NCBI GenBank assembly: GCA_003220225.1
Contig: QHRU01000038.1
Location: 1-64,000 of the forward strand
Direction of reading: 5' to 3'
Source of the DNA: Candidatus Rokuibacteriota bacterium
Lineage (GTDB): Bacteria > Methylomirabilota > Methylomirabilia > Rokubacteriales > CSP1-6
Length of the DNA stretch: 64,000 nt
This document shows positions 267 to 11,756 of this stretch, in pieces (positions within the stretch are counted from its first letter, which is position 1; every line of letters starts with the position of its first letter). The notes beneath the pieces are model-generated. The model was not told the DNA's origin. It saw only the letters and a list, made by a program, of their open reading frames with translations, and ran no database searches. Both the position numbers and the translations under genes were made by a program.

Positions 267-274
267 TGCGAGTC

Positions 275-280
275 TAGAAT
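275..280 (+). promoter_or_regulatory. Candidate -10 hexamer, leaderless geometry, upstream of coxD
   Basis: TAGAAT ends 7 nt before the coxD ATG at 288, so a transcript would begin at or next to the start codon. No Shine-Dalgarno sequence lies in between and no clear -35 box is visible. It matches the arrangement upstream of several other genes in this window. Confidence 0.35.
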
Positions 281-287
281 AGACGCC

Positions 288-2648
288 ATGCGCGAAGAGA
301 TCCGGAAGATCCAGGAACTGATGGAGGCAGCGGAGTATGTGACGGATGCGCCGGTCGCGACTTCGGTGTACCTCGCGACCCGCCTGCGCAAGCCGTTGCT
401 CATCGAAGGCCCCGCGGGCGTCGGCAAGACGGAGACGGCCAAGGTCCTGGCGCGAATGCTGGGGACAAATCTGATTCGCCTGCAGTGCTACGAGGGGCTT
501 GACGCTGCAGCCGCGCTCTACGAGTGGAATTATCAGAAACAGATCCTGCACATAAAGCTTCACGAATCGTCGGGTCGGAGGGCCTCAGACGAGGAGCATG
601 AAATCTTCTCGGAAGCATTTCTTCTTCGCCGTCCGCTTCTACAGGCCATCTCTCAGCCGGACCAAGCTCCAGTCCTTCTGGTGGACGAGGTTGACCGCTG
701 TGTGACTGCGCGAACGCTCGTGGCCACGACGCGAGGCGTCCGACGTGCTGACGATATCCGCGCCGGAGACGAGCTCGTGAGCTTCGACCCGAATGCTTTC
801 ACGGTCGCGAGATCTTTCGTCAAGCGCGTCGTTCCGAGGACTGCCGAGTCCGTGCTTCGCGTGTTCGTCGGTGGGCGTGTGATCGAGGTGACACCGGAAC
901 ACAAGTTCATCCGCTACGTCGGCGCCGGGTACGAGATCGTCGAGGCCCAGAGGCTTCGCCCTGGCGACCGGCTGCCCCTCCACAAGCCCTTCTACACCGG
1001 ATCGCTTCAGAATCCGGACGTGGCCGTCGATGACGAGATGGTGAAACTGTCCGACACCGCACGGCAACGATTCGACAAGGCGTACAAGGCGTCAGGCAGG
1101 ACCTACGAAAGTCTGGCTGTCGAGATCGGTGTGTCCCGACAACATCTCCGGAACGTGATTGCGCGGACGCCGTGCAAGGACTCACTGAGATCCGGACCGG
1201 TCTCGCGACTCGGGCGAGCGCTTGGCCTCGATGAGGCCGCCCTGTGGCGATGCGATGAGGTTCGGGGACTACGGATCACGCCCTCGCCGGTGTTTTACGA
1301 GGTTCTCGGCTATATCGTCGCGGACGGGTGCTTCACAAGTGATCGGCTGTGTATCGCCGACAAGGATCGGCAGAACGTCGACCTCTACGCTGCCAAGTTC
1401 GAAAGGGCATTCCGGCGTACCGCGCGGGTTGTGAAAGGACCACACAATAACTTCGAGGTCAGTTGCCACTCCCGTCCACTCGGACGCTTCCTCAAGCGCC
1501 TGCTTGGCCCCGGTATCGTGCGGAGCCGCGACCGACAAGCGCCTGCCTTCGTTTTCGATTTGCCGGCCGAGGAACGCGCGGCTTTTCTTCGCGGATATTT
1601 CGATGGGGAGGGTTGGGTAGGTGACCATCAGGTGGCCGCGGTGTCGGCCTCCCTCTATCTTCTGATTGGCGTGCAGTGGCTTCTCGCCTCGCTCGGAATC
1701 GACAGCCACATTTCGCCAGCGTCGGACACGGGCTTCGGGCTGGGGCGTCCTTACTACACTCTCGCGCTGACAGACACAGCGCGGTTCAGCCTGCTCGTCG
1801 GATTCTGCTCCCCGGCGAAGCGGGCAAAGCTGGGTGGCGGTCGGCGCCCCCAATGGTCGACGACGTCATATTTGCCGGAGACCGCGGTGCATCCGGCTCT
1901 GCGCCGGATTCGTGAGGGCGTCGTCTTGCATCGCACGCGCGGCCATCAAACGATCTATGACATCCTCGCGCGACGCGTGAAGCCAAACGTTGGTTCGATT
2001 CGGCGCCTAGCGGCGCAGCTCGATTCGGAGGAACTTCGTGGCTTGCTCGGCAAGGAAGTCGTCCTTTCCGAAGTGAGCCGTCTTGAAACAGTTCCTGGTG
2101 AACAGCCGGTCTTCGACTTCGTGCTGGCGGACAGCCCATACTTTGTGGCCAACCAGATCGTCACCCATAACTGCGACGAGGAGTTCGAGGCCTTCATGCT
2201 CGAGATCTTCTCGGACTGGCAGGTGACGATCCCGGAGATCGGCACCATCAAGGCCTCGCACCCACCGTACGTCGTGCTCACCTCCAACCGCACGCGCGAG
2301 CTGTCCGACGCGCTCCGGCGACGGTGCCTCTACCTGTGGATCGACTATCCGGACTTCGACAAAGAGGTCCGGATCGTGCAGCTCAAGGTGCCGGCGCTCA
2401 ACGAGAGCCTCGCGCGCGAGGTGACGCGGTTCATGGAGTCCCTGCGCCGGATGCGGCTCGCCAAGGTCCCGGGCGTCGCGGAGACGCTCGACTGGGCGCA
2501 GGCGCTGGCGGCCCTGCACGCCGATCACCTCGACGAGGCGATCGTGAGCGAGACGATCGGCGCCGTGCTCAAGGACGCGGACGACATCAAGCGGTTCCGC
2601 GCCGAGATCGCCAGGTCCGGGCTCGGGCCGCTGCTGGCCACACCCTGA
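288..2648 (+). CDS. coxD: CoxD-type MoxR AAA+ ATPase interrupted by an intein
   Basis: A 786-residue precursor. Removal of the intein (residues 138-628) leaves a normal-size MoxR ATPase of 295 residues. Walker A is GPAGVGKT near residue 41. Walker B, LLVDEVDR, ends at residue 137, exactly where the intein enters. The C-extein resumes with CDEEFEAF and contains the SNRTRELSDALRRRC sensor region and a WIDYPDFDKE segment. In CO dehydrogenase systems CoxD is a membrane-associated chaperone ATPase needed to complete the Cu-S-Mo active site, working with CoxE. The coxE homologue starts 2 nt downstream. Codon use in the intein and in the roughly 240 nt before it is less GC-biased than in the rest of the gene. 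CoxD is preferred over a generic MoxR because of the CoxE and XdhC neighbours. Confidence 0.85.
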   Translation: MREEIRKIQELMEAAEYVTDAPVATSVYLATRLRKPLLIEGPAGVGKTETAKVLARMLGTNLIRLQCYEGLDAAAALYEWNYQKQILHIKLHESSGRRASDEEHEIFSEAFLLRRPLLQAISQPDQAPVLLVDEVDRCVTARTLVATTRGVRRADDIRAGDELVSFDPNAFTVARSFVKRVVPRTAESVLRVFVGGRVIEVTPEHKFIRYVGAGYEIVEAQRLRPGDRLPLHKPFYTGSLQNPDVAVDDEMVKLSDTARQRFDKAYKASGRTYESLAVEIGVSRQHLRNVIARTPCKDSLRSGPVSRLGRALGLDEAALWRCDEVRGLRITPSPVFYEVLGYIVADGCFTSDRLCIADKDRQNVDLYAAKFERAFRRTARVVKGPHNNFEVSCHSRPLGRFLKRLLGPGIVRSRDRQAPAFVFDLPAEERAAFLRGYFDGEGWVGDHQVAAVSASLYLLIGVQWLLASLGIDSHISPASDTGFGLGRPYYTLALTDTARFSLLVGFCSPAKRAKLGGGRRPQWSTTSYLPETAVHPALRRIREGVVLHRTRGHQTIYDILARRVKPNVGSIRRLAAQLDSEELRGLLGKEVVLSEVSRLETVPGEQPVFDFVLADSPYFVANQIVTHNCDEEFEAFMLEIFSDWQVTIPEIGTIKASHPPYVVLTSNRTRELSDALRRRCLYLWIDYPDFDKEVRIVQLKVPALNESLAREVTRFMESLRRMRLAKVPGVAETLDWAQALAALHADHLDEAIVSETIGAVLKDADDIKRFRAEIARSGLGPLLATP
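699..2171 (+). mobile_element. Full-length intein with LAGLIDADG homing endonuclease in CoxD
   Basis: The 491-residue insertion begins with Cys138 (CVTARTLVATTRG), carries the block B motif TPEH (T202, H205), and ends with VTHN followed by Cys629 as the +1 residue. All residues expected for self-splicing are therefore present. The endonuclease core shows both LAGLIDADG-like helices: LGYIVADG (D346) and LRGYFDGEG (E441), each with its metal-binding acid. A helix-turn-helix-like stretch (YESLAVEIGVSRQHLRN) separates the splicing domain from the endonuclease. The insertion is directly after Walker B, at the catalytic core of the ATPase. Base composition is visibly lower in GC than the host exteins, which suggests recent transfer. 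Confidence 0.93.
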
Positions 2649-2649
2649 C

Positions 2650-3783
2650 GTGAGCCGCAGCCTCGGCGCCGCGATGGTGCGCTTCGCGGCTCTGCTGCGA
2701 CGCCAGGGGCTGCCCGTCACGCCCGAGCACGTCATCGACGGCGTGCGCGCGCTCGAGCACCTCGACCTCACCGACCGCGAGGAGATCCGTACCGGCCTCC
2801 GCTCCGTGTTTGCGTCCCGATCCGAAGACTTCGCGACCTTCGACCGCGCGTTCGACGCGTTCTGGCGCGCCGCCACCGAGGCCGATCGCGTGGCCGAGGC
2901 GCTGGCCCCACCCGCGCTCCCCGAGCACGCGCCACCGGGCCTCGAGCCCGCCGGGCGCGAGACGCTGGCGCTCGACGCCTGGCAGGAATCCGGCGACGGC
3001 GACACCGGCGACGAGCCGGTCGGCGTGCCGGCCGCCTCGGAGCTCGAGGCGATCGCGGCGCGCGATTTCTCCACGTTCTCGCCGGACCAGCTCGACGAGA
3101 TCTACCGTCTGACGCTCACGATCGCGCGGCGGCTGGCGCGGCGGATCAGCCGCCGCCGGCGGCCCTCCGCCCGCCGCGGCCGGATCGACCTGCGTCGCAC
3201 GCTACGCGCCAACCTCACGCGCGGCGAGCTGATCGACCTGCGCTTCCGGCGCCGCAAGCGCAAGAAGGTGCGCCTGGTGCTCCTCTGTGACGTCTCGGGC
3301 TCGATGGACCTCTACAGCCGCTTCCTCCTCCAGTTCCTGTTCGCGCTCCAGTCGGCGTTCTCGCGCGTGGAGACGTTCACGTTCTCCGTGCGGCTCACGC
3401 GCGTGACCGACTACCTGCGCGCGCGCTCGTACCGCGAGGTGTTGCGGCGGCTCACCGCGGTGAAGGACTGGTCGGGCGGCACGAGGATCGGCGAGTCGCT
3501 CGCCGAGTTCAATCGCGGTTGGCCGTCGCTGGTGGATCGCCGCACGATCGTGATCATCCTCTCCGACGGCTGGGACACCGGCGATCCCGACGTGCTCGCC
3601 GCCGAGCTGCTGCGCATCAAGCGCCGCGCGGGCCGCGTCATCTGGCTCAATCCGCTGCTCGGCAATCCCTCGTACGAGCCGCTGACCCGGGGCATGGCCG
3701 CTGCCCTGCCGCTGGTCGACCGCTTCGCGGCCGCCCATAATCTCGCCGCCCTCCGGGACCTGGCCGGATCCCTGTCGCTCTAG
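2650..3783 (+). CDS. coxE: CoxE-type VWA-domain protein
   Basis: A 377-residue protein with a GTG start 2 nt after the coxD stop. The N-terminal third (FAALLRRQGLPVTPEHVIDGVRALEHLDL) matches the helical part of CoxE proteins. An arginine-rich segment follows (RRISRRRRPSARRGRIDLRRTLR), then a VWA domain whose metal-dependent adhesion site, DVSGS, starts near residue 214. ILSDGWDTGD is the later VWA acidic loop. CoxE partners the MoxR ATPase CoxD as a substrate adaptor in maturation of Mo-Cu CO dehydrogenase. No signal peptide or membrane segment is seen, so it should be cytoplasmic. The ATPase-VWA pair is a well-known two-gene module. Confidence 0.88.
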   Translation: MSRSLGAAMVRFAALLRRQGLPVTPEHVIDGVRALEHLDLTDREEIRTGLRSVFASRSEDFATFDRAFDAFWRAATEADRVAEALAPPALPEHAPPGLEPAGRETLALDAWQESGDGDTGDEPVGVPAASELEAIAARDFSTFSPDQLDEIYRLTLTIARRLARRISRRRRPSARRGRIDLRRTLRANLTRGELIDLRFRRRKRKKVRLVLLCDVSGSMDLYSRFLLQFLFALQSAFSRVETFTFSVRLTRVTDYLRARSYREVLRRLTAVKDWSGGTRIGESLAEFNRGWPSLVDRRTIVIILSDGWDTGDPDVLAAELLRIKRRAGRVIWLNPLLGNPSYEPLTRGMAAALPLVDRFAAAHNLAALRDLAGSLSL

Positions 3784-4165: not shown

Positions 4166-4171
4166 TATGAT
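4166..4171 (+). promoter_or_regulatory. Candidate -10 hexamer upstream of the xdhC homologue
   Basis: TATGAT lies 8 nt before the GTG at 4180. This is compatible with a leaderless transcript. No convincing -35 box is present. Confidence 0.3.
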
Positions 4172-4179
4172 TGAGAGCC

Positions 4180-5247
4180 GTGGCGGAACTCTTCGATCAC
4201 ATTGACGAATTGCGGCGGGCCGGCGGGCGCGTCGCCGTCGCCACCCTCGTCAACACCCGCGGCACCACTCCGCGCAAGGAGGGGGCCAAGATGCTGGTGG
4301 GCGAGGGTGGCCGCGTGCTCGGCTCTGTCACCATCGGCGGCTGCGTGGACGCGCAGGTGATCGAGGAGTCCGAGGATGTGCTGAGCACCATGCGCCCGCG
4401 CCTGCTCGAGATGAACCTCGGCGACGAGGACGCGTGGGAGATCGGCCTCACGTGCGGCGGCACCATCGAGGTCTTCGTCGAGCCGATCGCGCTCGACGGC
4501 TCGCCCGACGTGGGCGCGCGGATGTACGAGCGGGTGCGCGAGCACGCGCGCCGCGGCGGCCACGGCGCCATCGTCACGCGCCTGGACGGCCCTGGCGGCA
4601 AGCTGCTCGTGCTCGATGACGGCACCGCCGAGGGCACGCTCGGCGACGCGTTCCTCGACGAGCGCTTCGCGGCCGAGGCGCGCGACGCCATCGCGCGGGG
4701 CGGCTCGCGCGCGCTCTTCCTGGAAGGCGTGCGCGGCTTCGTGGAGGTCATCGCCCCGCCCGCGCTCCTGCTCGTCGTCGGCGCCGGACACGTGGCGATG
4801 CCGCTCACGGCGCTGGCCCGGCTCCTCGGCTACCGCACCGTCGTGGTGGACGGCCGGCCGCGCTTCGCGACGAAGGAGCGGTTTCCCGACGTGGACGAGC
4901 TGAAGGTCGGCATGCCGTCCGAGCTCATCCGCGACTACCCTCTGGTGCCGTCCACGGCGCTGGTCCTCGTGGCCCACGACTACAAGTACGATCTGCCGGT
5001 CCTCAAGCACGCGCTGGCCACGGACGTCGGCTACCTCGGCATGCTCGGCTCCTCCCGGCGCGGGACGACCATCCTGCGGCATCTCGCGGAGGACGGCGTG
5101 ACGCCGGAGGCGCTCGCTCGCGTTCACGTGCCGATCGGCCTCGACCTGGGCGCGCGGTCGGCGCCCGAGATCGCGCTGGCGATCCTCGCCGAGATCCAGG
5201 CCGTGCGCGGCGGCGGTAGCGGTCGCTCGCTGAGCACGCAACCGTGA
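4180..5247 (+). CDS. xdhC: XdhC/CoxF family molybdenum-cofactor insertion factor
   Basis: A 355-residue protein if started at GTG 4180; an in-frame TTG at 4171 is the alternative. The N-terminal XdhC/CoxI domain contains VATLVNTRGTTPRKEGAKMLV and the SVTIGGCVDAQVIEE segment. The C-terminal Rossmann domain begins near residue 197 with LLLVVGAGHVAMPL and continues through YLGMLGSSRR to the conserved IGLDLGARSAPEIALAILAE tail. XdhC proteins bind the cytosine-dinucleotide Mo cofactor, help its sulfuration and insert it into xanthine dehydrogenase or CO dehydrogenase-type enzymes. The stop overlaps the next GTG by 4 nt, implying translational coupling with the molybdopterin-binding protein. Confidence 0.85.
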   Translation: MAELFDHIDELRRAGGRVAVATLVNTRGTTPRKEGAKMLVGEGGRVLGSVTIGGCVDAQVIEESEDVLSTMRPRLLEMNLGDEDAWEIGLTCGGTIEVFVEPIALDGSPDVGARMYERVREHARRGGHGAIVTRLDGPGGKLLVLDDGTAEGTLGDAFLDERFAAEARDAIARGGSRALFLEGVRGFVEVIAPPALLLVVGAGHVAMPLTALARLLGYRTVVVDGRPRFATKERFPDVDELKVGMPSELIRDYPLVPSTALVLVAHDYKYDLPVLKHALATDVGYLGMLGSSRRGTTILRHLAEDGVTPEALARVHVPIGLDLGARSAPEIALAILAEIQAVRGGGSGRSLSTQP

Positions 5248-6278
5248 AAGCGCTTGCACAGCGGCGCGACGGCGCCACGGCCGACCTGCTCGTGGGCCGC
5301 GTGCTCTGCCACGACGTCCGCGACGCGGCCGGCAAGGTCGCCCTCGGCAAGGGGGCCCGGCTGGACGCCGATGCCGCGCGGACCCTCCTGGCGCTGCCCT
5401 GGGACGAAGTGCACCTGCTGGCCCTCGAGCCCGGCGATCTGCACGAGGAGGACGCCGGCCGGCGGCTGGCGGCGGCGGTGACCGGCGACGGGGTCGAGGT
5501 CAAGGCCTACACGGGCGGCCAGTGGACGCTGGCGGCGACCCGGCGAGGTCTCCTCCGCGTGGATCCCGCGCGGCTCGCCGCGGTGAACGTGCACGAGGGG
5601 ATGGCCGTCTTCACGCTGTTCGACCGTCAGCCCGTGGACCGCGGCGAGACCGTGGCCAAGGCGAAGGTCACGCCGCTCGCGATCGGCGCCGACACCGTGA
5701 GCGCGGTGGAGCAGGCCGCGCGCGGCGGGGCGGTGACGGTGGCGGCGTTCCGGCCGGCTGCGCTGGGGACGGTGGCGCGTGAAACTCTCGCGGCGCGACA
5801 GCGCGAGCGCTTCGAGGGCGCACTGCGGACCAAGATCGACTGGTTCGGCGGGCGGCTGCTGCCGGTGCGCTTCGCCGCCGCCTCGGCGCGCGCGGTCGCC
5901 GAGGAGATGAGCGCGCTGCGCGCAGAGGGCGCCGACGTGCTGATCGTGGCGGGCGCCAGCGCGCTCGATCCGCTCGATCCCGTCTTCGGCGGGCTCACCC
6001 TGCTCGGCGCGCGCATGGAGCGGCACGGCGCCCCCGCGCATCCCGGCAGCCTCCTGTTCCTGGCGCGCTGGCAGGACCTGCCCGTGCTCGGCATGCCGAC
6101 GTGCGGGATGTTCTCGCAGGCGACGACGTTCGACCTCGTGCTCCCGCGGCTGCTGGCCGGCGAGGCCCTCGGCAACGCGGAGATCGCCGCCCTCGGCCAC
6201 GGGGGCCTGCTCTCGCGCGAGATGGCGTACCGCTTCCCCGCGTACCGCGTCGGCGCCGCGCGCGGAGAGCTCGAGTGA
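5244..6278 (+). CDS. Molybdopterin-binding (MoeA/MoCF-like) protein
   Basis: A 344-residue protein with a GTG start overlapping the xdhC stop. The C-terminal half resembles the MoCF/molybdopterin-binding fold: ADVLIVAGASALDPLDPVF near residues 229-248, then GMPTCGMFSQATTFDLVLPRLLAGE near residues 282-306. In classical MoeA the equivalent region binds adenylated molybdopterin. The N-terminal half is distinct from full MoeA domain I. Such partial MoeA relatives are often found beside xdhC and MobA-like genes in molybdenum hydroxylase clusters, where they probably handle cofactor synthesis or transfer. The precise reaction is not established. Confidence 0.7.
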   Translation: MKALAQRRDGATADLLVGRVLCHDVRDAAGKVALGKGARLDADAARTLLALPWDEVHLLALEPGDLHEEDAGRRLAAAVTGDGVEVKAYTGGQWTLAATRRGLLRVDPARLAAVNVHEGMAVFTLFDRQPVDRGETVAKAKVTPLAIGADTVSAVEQAARGGAVTVAAFRPAALGTVARETLAARQRERFEGALRTKIDWFGGRLLPVRFAAASARAVAEEMSALRAEGADVLIVAGASALDPLDPVFGGLTLLGARMERHGAPAHPGSLLFLARWQDLPVLGMPTCGMFSQATTFDLVLPRLLAGEALGNAEIAALGHGGLLSREMAYRFPAYRVGAARGELE

Positions 6279-6649
6279 GCAGCGTCACGCGCCCGGCCCT
6301 CTACAGCGAGACGATCCGGGAGCGCTGGCGCCGGCCGCGCTTCCGCGGCGAGCTGGCCGGCGCGACGGCGACCGCCGAGGACGTCAACCCGCTCTGCGGC
6401 GACCGCGTGCGGATGCAGGTCACGCTGCAGGACGGCCGCGTGAGCGCCGCGCGCTTCGTCGGCGACTCCTGCGCGATCTGCACCGCGTCCGCCGACGTCC
6501 TGTCGGAGTTGATCGAGGGCCGCTCGCGCGCCGAGGCGTCGGCGCTGGGCGCCGGCGACGTGCTCGAAATCTTGAGAGCCGACGTGCGCCCCACGCGCAT
6601 GCGCTGCGTGACGCTGCCGATCAGCGTGCTCGCGAAGGCGCTGGCATGA
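6275..6649 (+). CDS. sufU: SufU/IscU-like Fe-S or sulfur scaffold
   Basis: A 124-residue protein. The start is GTG 6275, which overlaps the upstream stop by 4 nt; a longer reading would run into the previous gene. Likely zinc or cluster ligands are C41-x-D43 (NPLCGD), C66 (DSCAIC) and C111 (RMRC). The C66-C111 spacing is short, close to IscU, and lacks the insertion usual in Gram-positive SufU. SufU accepts persulfide sulfur from SufS, and sufS follows with an ATGA overlap. In this context the pair may feed Fe-S assembly or cofactor sulfuration of the molybdenum enzymes; that role is inferred. Confidence 0.82.
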   Translation: MSSVTRPALYSETIRERWRRPRFRGELAGATATAEDVNPLCGDRVRMQVTLQDGRVSAARFVGDSCAICTASADVLSELIEGRSRAEASALGAGDVLEILRADVRPTRMRCVTLPISVLAKALA

Positions 6650-7857
6650 CGCTCGACGCCCAGACGCGGCGCGACTTTCCGATCCTCGAGCGGATCGTCA
6701 ACGGCCGCCCGCTCGTCTACCTCGACTCTGCCGCCTCCAGCCAGAAGCCGCGAACGGTGATCGAGGCGATGGCGCGTTACTACGAGACCTCGCACGCGAA
6801 CGTGCATCGCTCGATCCACACGCTGGGGGAGGAGGCGACCGAGCTCTACGAGATCGCGCGCGACCGCGTCCAGCGCTTCATCGGCGCCGCGGCCCGCGAG
6901 GAGATCGTGTTCACGCGGGGGACCACCGATGCGATCTCGATCGTGGCCGAGGCCGTCGGGCGGACGCTGAAGCCGGGCGACGAGATCCTCGTCACGGACA
7001 TGGAGCATCACTCGAACCTGGTGCCCTGGCAGGTGGCGGCGCGTGACCGCGGCGCGCGGATCCGCTCCGTCCCGCTCGTCGGCGAGGGGACGCTCGATCT
7101 CGCGGCCCTCGACCGGCTCCTGACCGATCGCACCCGGGTCTTCGCGTTCGCGCACGTGTCCAACGTCCTGGGGACCATCAACCCCGTCGCCGAGCTCGCC
7201 GCGCGCGCGCGTCGGGTGGGAGCGCTGAGCCTGGTGGACGGGGCTCAGGCGATCCCTCATCTACTCCTTGATATGTCCGTGCTGGGATGCGATTTTTACG
7301 CGTTCTCCGCCCACAAGATGCTGGGCCCGACCGGACTCGGTGTGCTGTACGGCCGCCGGGCGCTGCTCGAGGCGCTCGAGCCCGCGCGGGGAGGCAGCGA
7401 GATGATCAAGGAAGTCTGGGTGGATCGCGCCACCTGGAACGACCTGCCGTGGCGGTTCGAGCCCGGCACGCCGCCGATCGCCGAGACCGTCGGTCTCACC
7501 GCGGCCGTCGAGTATCTCGAGAAGCTCGGCATGGAGCGGGTGCGCGAGCACGAGCAGGCGCTGGCCGTGCAGACGGTGGATCTCTTGAGCGCGATCCCGG
7601 GCGTGCGGATCTACGGGCCGCGACGCGAGCGCGGCGCCGTCGTGGCCTTCTCCGTCGACGGCTGGCACCCGCACGACGTCGCCGCCGCCCTCGACGCCGA
7701 GGGCATCGCGGTGCGCGCCGGCCATCACTGCGCCCAGCCGCTGATGCGCTGGTGTGGCGTGGTCGGCACGAGCCGCGCCAGCTTCTCCGTCTACAACTCG
7801 TCGGAGGAGGTCGCCCTGCTGGCCCACGCCGTGGCCTCGCTCGGGGCGGCGCTCTGA
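6646..7857 (+). CDS. sufS: SufS-type cysteine desulfurase
   Basis: A 403-residue class V aminotransferase-fold enzyme that releases sulfur from cysteine as an enzyme persulfide. The PLP lysine is K224 in FSAHKMLGPTG, and the persulfide cysteine is C362 in RAGHHCAQPL, both in standard SufS context. EHHSNLVPWQ marks the cofactor pocket. Length and start (RRDFPILERIVNGRPLVYLDSAASSQKP) are typical of SufS. The ATG overlaps the sufU stop, so the two are very likely co-translated. Confidence 0.95.
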   Translation: MTLDAQTRRDFPILERIVNGRPLVYLDSAASSQKPRTVIEAMARYYETSHANVHRSIHTLGEEATELYEIARDRVQRFIGAAAREEIVFTRGTTDAISIVAEAVGRTLKPGDEILVTDMEHHSNLVPWQVAARDRGARIRSVPLVGEGTLDLAALDRLLTDRTRVFAFAHVSNVLGTINPVAELAARARRVGALSLVDGAQAIPHLLLDMSVLGCDFYAFSAHKMLGPTGLGVLYGRRALLEALEPARGGSEMIKEVWVDRATWNDLPWRFEPGTPPIAETVGLTAAVEYLEKLGMERVREHEQALAVQTVDLLSAIPGVRIYGPRRERGAVVAFSVDGWHPHDVAAALDAEGIAVRAGHHCAQPLMRWCGVVGTSRASFSVYNSSEEVALLAHAVASLGAAL

Positions 7858-11103: not shown

Positions 11104-11179
11104 GGGGGGTTAGCTCAGTTGGGAGAGCGCGGCGTTCGCAACGCCGAGGTCGAGGGTTCGAATCCCTTACCCTCCACCA
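11104..11179 (+). tRNA. tRNA-Ala (anticodon CGC)
   Basis: The 76 nt include an encoded CCA. The acceptor stem GGGGGGT pairs with ACCCTCC and contains the G3-U70 wobble pair that identifies tRNA-Ala. The anticodon loop TTCGCAA gives CGC, reading GCG. The D arm (GCTC...GAGC) and T arm (GAGGG-TTCGAAT-CCCTT) are normal. The 3' end lies 1 nt from the stop codon of an integrase remnant on the other strand, so this tRNA was probably an integration site. Confidence 0.97.
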
Positions 11180-11180
11180 T

Positions 11181-11756
11181 CTATTCTCCACCGCGCTGAT
11201 CGGCACTTAGCGCACGACCAGCCGCAGGTGGGACGCAGTGGGACGCGGCGGGACGCTCGGCGTCGTCGGACTCGAGCGTTCCTCCGCCGTCACCCGCCGA
11301 GTTGACGCCCCACAGAACCGCGTCGAGGTGGTCGACGTCCCGTTCGTGACGCTCGCGTACGAGGTGCCCGTAGGTCCCCTCGGTCTCGCCGATCGAGGCG
11401 TGGCCCATCTGGTCTTTGACCCAGCGGATGTCGGCGCCGGCCTCGAGCAGCCAGGTGGCGTAGCTGTGCCGCATCGCATGCGGCTTGCGGTAGGGCAGGC
11501 CGGCCGCGCGCAGGAGCGGCTGCCACACGAGCTCGTGGAACGCGCCGTAGCGGGTCACCCCACCGACGGTGTTGGGGAAGACGAGCCGTCGTTGCTCCGG
11601 CGTCCACTCCTTGAGTGACGCCTCGAGCTCCATCGCCTCGCAGTGCGCTCTCAACGCGGCAAGGGCCGAGGCGGGGAGGGTCACCCAGCGATCGTCGCCG
11701 TCCTTGCAACGTTCGACCCGGCCACCGCTCTCCGACCAGGCCCGCTGCACGCCCAT
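11181..11756 (-). pseudogene. Truncated tyrosine recombinase (integrase) remnant
   Basis: The surviving 191 codons encode only the C-terminal catalytic part: a beta-hairpin lysine (ERCKDGDDRWVTLP), H93-x-x-R96 (HAMRHSYATWLLEAGAD), H119 (MGHASIGET) and nucleophile Y129 (EGTYGHL). The first catalytic arginine and the core-binding domain are missing. Upstream sequence switches directly into an unrelated acetyltransferase fragment on the opposite strand near 11,752. The stop codon abuts the 3' end of tRNA-Ala, the usual position for an integrase of a tRNA-targeting element. It is almost certainly inactive. I saw no duplicated tRNA end downstream. Confidence 0.85.

Follow-up and report, generated by a model that had tools for sequence, protein, structure and literature searches.

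The window, that is, the whole stretch of 64,000 nucleotides analysed here, starts at a contig end, inside the gene that precedes coxD. Its forward strand carries a reading frame (288-2648) that is open across 786 codons (786 aa), and the outer parts of this frame match MoxR/CoxD-type ATPases, with both a Walker A and a Walker B motif. Between these exteins, and in frame with them, lies an intein of 491 residues (699-2171). The TGT codon of its first residue, Cys1 (699-701), stands directly 3′ of LLVDEVDR, the Walker B sequence; its C-terminal end reads ACCCATAAC (THN; ...VTHN), and the TGC codon directly 3′ of it (2172-2174) encodes the +1 Cys. Removal of the intein from the frame leaves a CoxD-type MoxR ATPase of 295 aa. 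Genes for a VWA (CoxE) protein and for an XdhC protein adjoin. The features of the locus are the following.

270..2171, + strand: probable imported recombination tract, N-extein and intein; diverged, with low GC3; ends sharply at the 3′ junction of the intein; left boundary approximate
288..698, + strand: N-extein, CoxD-type MoxR/AAA+ ATPase; Walker A GPAGVGKT; ends in LLVDEVDR; GC3 0.72 against 0.91-0.92 in congeners G001 and G002
681..698, + strand: homing-site footprint, upstream half, codons -6 to -1 (comparative)
699..2171, + strand: class 1 intein with LAGLIDADG endonuclease, 491 aa (Pfam, alignment, model)
699..737, + strand: block A, C1-VTARTLVATTRG; Cys1 invariant in 15 allelic inteins
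852..908, + strand: block B region VLRVFVGGRVIEVTPEHKF with TPEH; E67 and H68 invariant
1053..1160, + strand: helix-turn-helix-like insert, probable DNA contact; HTH_3 E=0.011 (weak); model helices 119-132, 136-143 and 147-154
1302..1328, + strand: first LAGLIDADG motif, VLGYIVADG (Asp209); D209 invariant
1584..1613, + strand: second LAGLIDADG motif, FLRGYFDGEG (Glu304); E304 in all except G062 (DGGG)
2106..2171, + strand: blocks F and G, PVFDFVLADSPYFVANQIVTHN; D473, H490 and N491 invariant
2172..2648, + strand: C-extein, +1 Cys (2172-2174) followed by DEEFEAFMLE; Cys at +1 in each of the 16 occupied alleles read
2172..2192, + strand: homing-site footprint, downstream half, seven codons 3′ of the junction (0 to +6) (comparative)
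2650..3783, + strand: CoxE-type VWA protein, downstream partner gene; VWA_CoxE E=1e-64
4171..5247, + strand: XdhC/CoxF-type maturation factor (domain/homology match)

The insert has the make-up of a class 1 intein with a LAGLIDADG endonuclease. The sequence holds Cys1, a block B TxxH (TPEH, with His68), a terminal HN and a Cys at +1. The Hint fold is seen in an AlphaFold model (pLDDT 85, pTM 0.84), whose nearest PDB structures in a Foldseek search are the endonuclease-bearing inteins TliVMA (E 1e-23), PI-PkoII and PI-PfuI. Searching the reading frame against Pfam yields LAGLIDADG_3 (E=1e-12), the two motifs each having an acidic residue (D209 and E304), and Intein_splicing (E=5e-7), which covers both halves over residues 22-491 with 30.2 bits, that is, below the curated cut-off of 35.8. 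Alignment of 15 allelic inteins shows that C1, E67-H68 of block B, D209, D473 of block F, H490 and N491 are invariant; E304, of the second LAGLIDADG motif, is kept in 14 of them, the exception being G062 (DGGG for DGEG). The exteins are homologous to one uninterrupted protein, 29 uninterrupted homologues being continuous across the junction. Helical inserts are found between the splicing and endonuclease domains, one of which is weakly HTH-like (HTH_3, E=0.011) and probably contacts DNA. The original prediction had placed an active-looking intein with an endonuclease at the Walker B site of a CoxD/MoxR-type ATPase. Anatomy, alignment and fold confirmed this, and the coordinates, the length of 491 residues and the motifs given for it proved exact against the reading frame, the junction codons, Pfam and the 15-intein alignment. 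Judged from its sequence, this is a genuine and active-looking mobile intein, in a host site without description in the papers searched.

The gene order MoxR ATPase - VWA - XdhC is also that of A. carboxidovorans. It had been proposed that splicing is required before CO dehydrogenase can be matured, a claim that does not survive inspection of the operon. The large subunit encoded upstream has the motif AYRGAGR (form II) in G001 and in other relatives. The matching large-subunit fragment of the window genome is of the same AYRGAGR type and shares 93% identity with its G001 counterpart; as the window starts at a contig end, the link to this subunit in the window genome rests on the gene order of the congener. 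An AYXCSFR large subunit is absent from this type of operon (in G001, the other relatives and the matching fragment of the window genome), and the form I CoxL (AYRCSFR) of the window genome lies on a different contig. The AYRGAGR motif of the large subunit hence rules out a form I CO dehydrogenase operon. Downstream of the cox-type genes the window also holds genes for a NifU-like scaffold and a SufS-type cysteine desulfurase (6167-7857), which fit a sulfur supply to the Mo centre. In another genome, G079, coxD contains an in-frame TAA (L060, G079:C112), the mark of a pseudogene or of an assembly error.

The same intein was found at the same residue in 16 of the 57 genomes of the family and in G036, of a sister family in the same order, all of them Rokubacteria. 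Carriers thus amount to 17 of the 95 phylum genomes sampled, and the intein was not found in the remaining ones. A scan with one genome per species across 85,000 prokaryotes recovered full-length relatives only in Candidatus Rokuibacteriota; the genomes in question are, wherever titled, apparently metagenome assemblies. This distribution bears on whether the insert was made by an assembly chimera or a strain mixture, one of the two findings that the original prediction had named as its refuters. One contig (G027:C69) does have the look of an empty allele mixed with an occupied one. Against such an origin, 15 complete alleles from separate assemblies have corresponding junctions and open frames throughout, and because the same intein occupies the same residue in 17 Rokubacteria genomes, the insert of the window is no assembly chimera, an explanation to which we leave practically no room. 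The contig in question (L014, ~1054-2620) presents an empty coxD junction (DR followed by SDEEFEAFMLEIFSE), a shared EIFSE segment and then an occupied junction (DR followed by CVAAR). It is probably an assembly joining two coexisting strains and, if so, both alleles were present in one population. A phage as the present vehicle of the intein was rejected, the scan of viral contigs having returned just two remote matches, at 24% identity.

The intein is missing from 41 of the 57 family genomes, most of which have a continuous coxD, and coxD is uninterrupted in both congeners of the window genome. Both states occur among full-length alleles within the genera g1, g4, g9, g15 and g17. The host-gene tree calls for 12 changes in the state of the intein, of which well supported branches force 10 or more, and clustering of the intein on this tree was not found (212 of 500 label shuffles were as low). 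The outcome is a natural series of ~29 empty and 17 occupied alleles at one site in one bacterial order.

These data also bear on the suggestion that the intein acts as a conditional switch, that is, as a domesticated element whose regulated splicing gates maturation of the Mo enzyme. Since the insertion disrupts the Walker B region, the unspliced precursor should be inactive, and regulated inteins exist, such as that of Pyrococcus horikoshii RadA (PMC5790916). However, most relatives do without the intein, including both congeners with their uninterrupted gene, that of G001 standing in the same kind of operon; the intein does not cluster on the host tree; the enzyme of the operon is other than form I CO dehydrogenase; and the endonuclease too is under purifying selection, a requirement of mobility. 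A switch is hence unsupported and appears very improbable: the distribution is patchy, and all the signs point to a mobile element.

In close pairs, the dN of the intein is well below its dS in all domains. This includes the endonuclease (dN 0.065 and dS 0.383 for G063/G068; dN 0.095 and dS 0.811 for G063/G067), which is thus being maintained. Comparison of G029 with G076 yields a divergence of 0.15-0.20 upstream of the gene and of 0.12-0.19 in the early C-extein, against mostly 0.01-0.05 over a tract of ~1.5 kb that takes in some of the N-extein and the greater part of the intein; dS is 0.085 for the intein and 0.336 for the host gene. This tract is best read as a recent recombination that carried the intein together with its upstream flank. 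A similar picture is seen in the window, where the N-extein has a GC3 of 0.72 (0.91-0.92 in congeners) and diverges from congeners by 0.22, and the C-extein has a GC3 of 0.96 and diverges by 0.10-0.13, the shift taking place at the 3′ intein junction. The N-extein and intein of this allele were probably imported as one tract by recombination.

Inteins in decay were also observed. The second LAGLIDADG motif of G062 (L044) has a Glu to Gly change, and the inteins of G013 (L012) and G033 (L010) have internal deletions of ~30 residues; splicing residues are kept in these alleles. Outside genus g9 the intein tree has poor resolution, and for this reason incongruence between the intein and host trees was not used as proof of transfer. 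Within g9 the dS of the intein exceeds that of the host, which is no proof of transfer either, because the host genes have a stronger codon bias. Taken together, patchiness, selection, recombination tracts and stages of decay match what would be expected of a homing cycle.

The residue at +1 is Cys in all 16 occupied alleles read. Among 29 empty alleles it is Ala (11), Ser (10), Gly (5), Cys (2; TGT, in G032 and G034) or Val (1). The view that the +1 Cys replaces Ala or Ser therefore stood for the two commonest residues and was incomplete, given the Gly, Cys and Val alleles. A paralogue (~48% identity), present in most of these genomes and uninterrupted in the copies read, has Ala at this position in 21 of 21 cases, and in eight homologues of other phyla the residue is Ala or Thr. 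As +1 is mostly a residue other than Cys in empty alleles, in the paralogue and in other phyla, the Cys codon has to arrive with the intein, and co-conversion accounts for this.

The cycle that we propose runs as follows. The precursor would be translated and the Hint domain would splice itself out through Cys1, the block B His, Asn491 and Cys+1, leaving a 295-residue ATPase in which Cys replaces the usual small residue. The freed endonuclease would then cut empty coxD alleles at the junction, and repair off the occupied allele would copy the intein and flanking coxD, and with them the +1 Cys codon, which is essential. In exposed genera, empty alleles would subsequently diverge fast at the target, mostly through synonymous changes and tolerated swaps, and probably escape in this way. 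Both splicing and cutting of the coxD site by the intein are steps that we infer.

The last step was assessed at the presumed target over 13 codons (~39 bp), six before the junction and seven after it, a width chosen after inspection of the codon profile. Genera with carriers are referred to as exposed; they are only five, four of them with at least two empty alleles, and each is represented by few genomes. Of the empty alleles, 11 come from exposed genera and 18 from unexposed ones. The main carrier-containing clade comprises 19 empty alleles; their GC3 at the site is 0.73, against an expectation of 0.92 for these residues in these genes (z -11.6), and GC3 of pooled empty alleles is normal in stretches more than 15 codons away from the junction. 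A tree-aware count gives 47 third-position changes at the site for empty alleles of exposed genera, vs 20.6 on average, and 35 at most, across the 258 other windows. For empty alleles of unexposed genera it gives 46 vs 41.8, which is ordinary, and for carriers 50 vs 38.1, with first and second positions conserved. When pairs within exposed genera are compared, the top window of the whole scan falls exactly on the site, with 3.03-fold the mean divergence; in unexposed genera the site is not among the top windows of the divergence scan. Furthermore, exposed genera have a larger excess of A/T third positions than unexposed ones (p=0.014 by genus, p=0.0004 by genome). The changes are mostly synonymous (AGR for CGN, GAA for GAG, AGY against TCN), and the tolerated swaps lie at the +1 residue, three residues before (Val to Cys/Leu) and four after (Phe to Leu/Ala). 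The +1 residue is variable in unexposed genera also, and genus g10, with no known carrier, has a partial footprint (2.1, 1.7 and 0.8-fold). Empty alleles from three genera (L021 of G014, L025 of G035 and L033 of G031) share a near-identical site, ATC GAT CGN GGN GAC GAG GAG CTG GAA GCC, in genes that are distant from each other elsewhere; convergence could explain it, as could the transfer of a short resistant stretch.

The anomaly of the site could instead consist of scars of intein loss, namely co-converted flanks and a left-over Cys. The empty alleles of G032 and G034 with TGT at +1 speak for this, as does the fact that G034 has the fewest site differences from a congeneric carrier (5 of 39). 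GC3 is low at the site in carriers as well, so that flanks co-copied with the intein may account for part of the anomaly. On the other hand, codon -1 is mostly CGA or CGC in carriers and CGC, CGT, CGG or AGR in empty alleles (CGA in 1 of 19), codon +3 is mostly GAA in carriers and mostly GAG in empty alleles, and empty alleles are strongly different from each other within a genus. Loss scars may hence account for the two Cys-bearing alleles; they fail for the remaining ones, whose codons differ from those of carriers and from each other, and as a general explanation we regard them as unlikely.

A fast site could also be unrelated to the intein and reflect a peculiarity of this loop in codon usage or translation, or else small-sample chance. 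In all groups of alleles, codons -1 and 0 are indeed somewhat raised. A further point in favour comes from a second intein of the window genome, which interrupts the Walker A of a bacterial RadA gene between GCGK and STLLL (L003 442-3297, G000:C113); RadA of the congener G001 is split at the same place. Empty alleles of this RadA site have a GC3 dip (z -6.9, 15 sequences), with g1 as the only genus of the family that shows signs of carrying the intein, although divergence there is modest (1.53-fold, rank 59 of 509) and without a clear peak. Against an unrelated cause, unexposed coxD alleles are ordinary at the site, and the paralogue of the same genomes behaves in the opposite manner at the same position: its Walker B codons show 0.52-fold the mean divergence in the same genera (rank 258 of 267), among the most conserved windows, and GC3 there is slightly above expectation. 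We consider this explanation about as doubtful as that of loss scars.

Pressure from the endonuclease is the likeliest cause of the footprint, in that alleles missed by target recognition would persist empty. In empty alleles of exposed genera, Walker B DNA, normally highly constrained, is the fastest-changing stretch of the gene, with the paralogue of the same cells frozen; that homing pressure drives this, and does so independently in several genera, has in our judgement an even chance. A comparable footprint would arise from mutagenic repair at the cut, and action of the endonuclease would be needed there too. That the localised divergence of empty sites represents escape from the endonuclease is a reading that we favour slightly. 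In the interpretation as a whole we have good confidence: a class 1 intein able to splice and to move, which bears a homing endonuclease with two LAGLIDADG motifs, is allelic among Rokubacteria and sits after the CoxD-type Walker B, with homing and probable target escape.

Two observations concern other loci. A third intein-like insert of the window genome (L002 889-3537, G000:C69) has LAGLIDADG-type motifs in a host that looks like a DUF362-type iron-sulfur protein. In the window, at 11104-11756, a tRNA-Ala (CGC) adjoins an integrase gene of phage type that runs on the opposite strand; an integrated element probably has one of its edges here.

A description of an intein in CoxD was not found in the literature searched, and for a known class of inteins the locus is thus a new host gene with a new insertion point. 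CoxD of Afipia (Oligotropha) carboxidovorans (PMC3471820; L155) has 295 aa and the same MoxR ATPase - VWA - XdhC order; unlike CoxD of the window, it has no intein, its +1 residue is Ala and a form I (AYRCSFR) large subunit adjoins. With the class 1 LAGLIDADG inteins TliVMA (7qss), PI-PkoII (2cw7), PI-PfuI (1dq3) and PI-SceI the CoxD intein shares the Hint fold, the inserted two-motif endonuclease, C1, TxxH and HN. It differs from them in host protein, in insertion site and in its two helical inserts, one of them HTH-like, and is ~14-17% identical to the best of the TliVMA/PI-PkoII/PI-PfuI class matches. TerL1-e of mycobacteriophages (PMC5050341) is likewise inserted at the Walker B of a P-loop ATPase. 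The likeness lies in the insertion point, the host being here a CoxD/MoxR ATPase of a bacterial chromosome.

The part worth following is the allele series with its localised divergence footprint. The stability of homing elements depends in theory on host escape from cutting (PMC3229294), natural evidence for which was found to be only limited (PMC10643990). A series of empty and occupied alleles, with several genera that have both, allows us to ask directly whether hosts escape by changing conserved targets. In the model of the homing cycle, X-prime alleles, that is, less susceptible empty ones, are predicted as target-site mutants with less homing, costly as the sites are conserved (PMC3229294); compared with this theory, the coxD case is a comparative footprint in natural genomes, known from sequence alone. 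A precedent for the empty alleles is found in the MCM-d intein of Haloferacales (PMC10643990), where they likewise have a +1 residue unsuited to splicing (Pro there; Ala, Gly or Val here) within an insertion site that is variable in both systems. Because the empty +1 residue is unsuited to splicing, the nucleophile codon must be copied during homing in both MCM-d and CoxD. The MCM-d endonuclease still cuts the resistant mcm allele (PMC10643990). In contrast to MCM-d, the whole site of ~39 bp diverges in coxD, and it does so mostly through synonymous changes.
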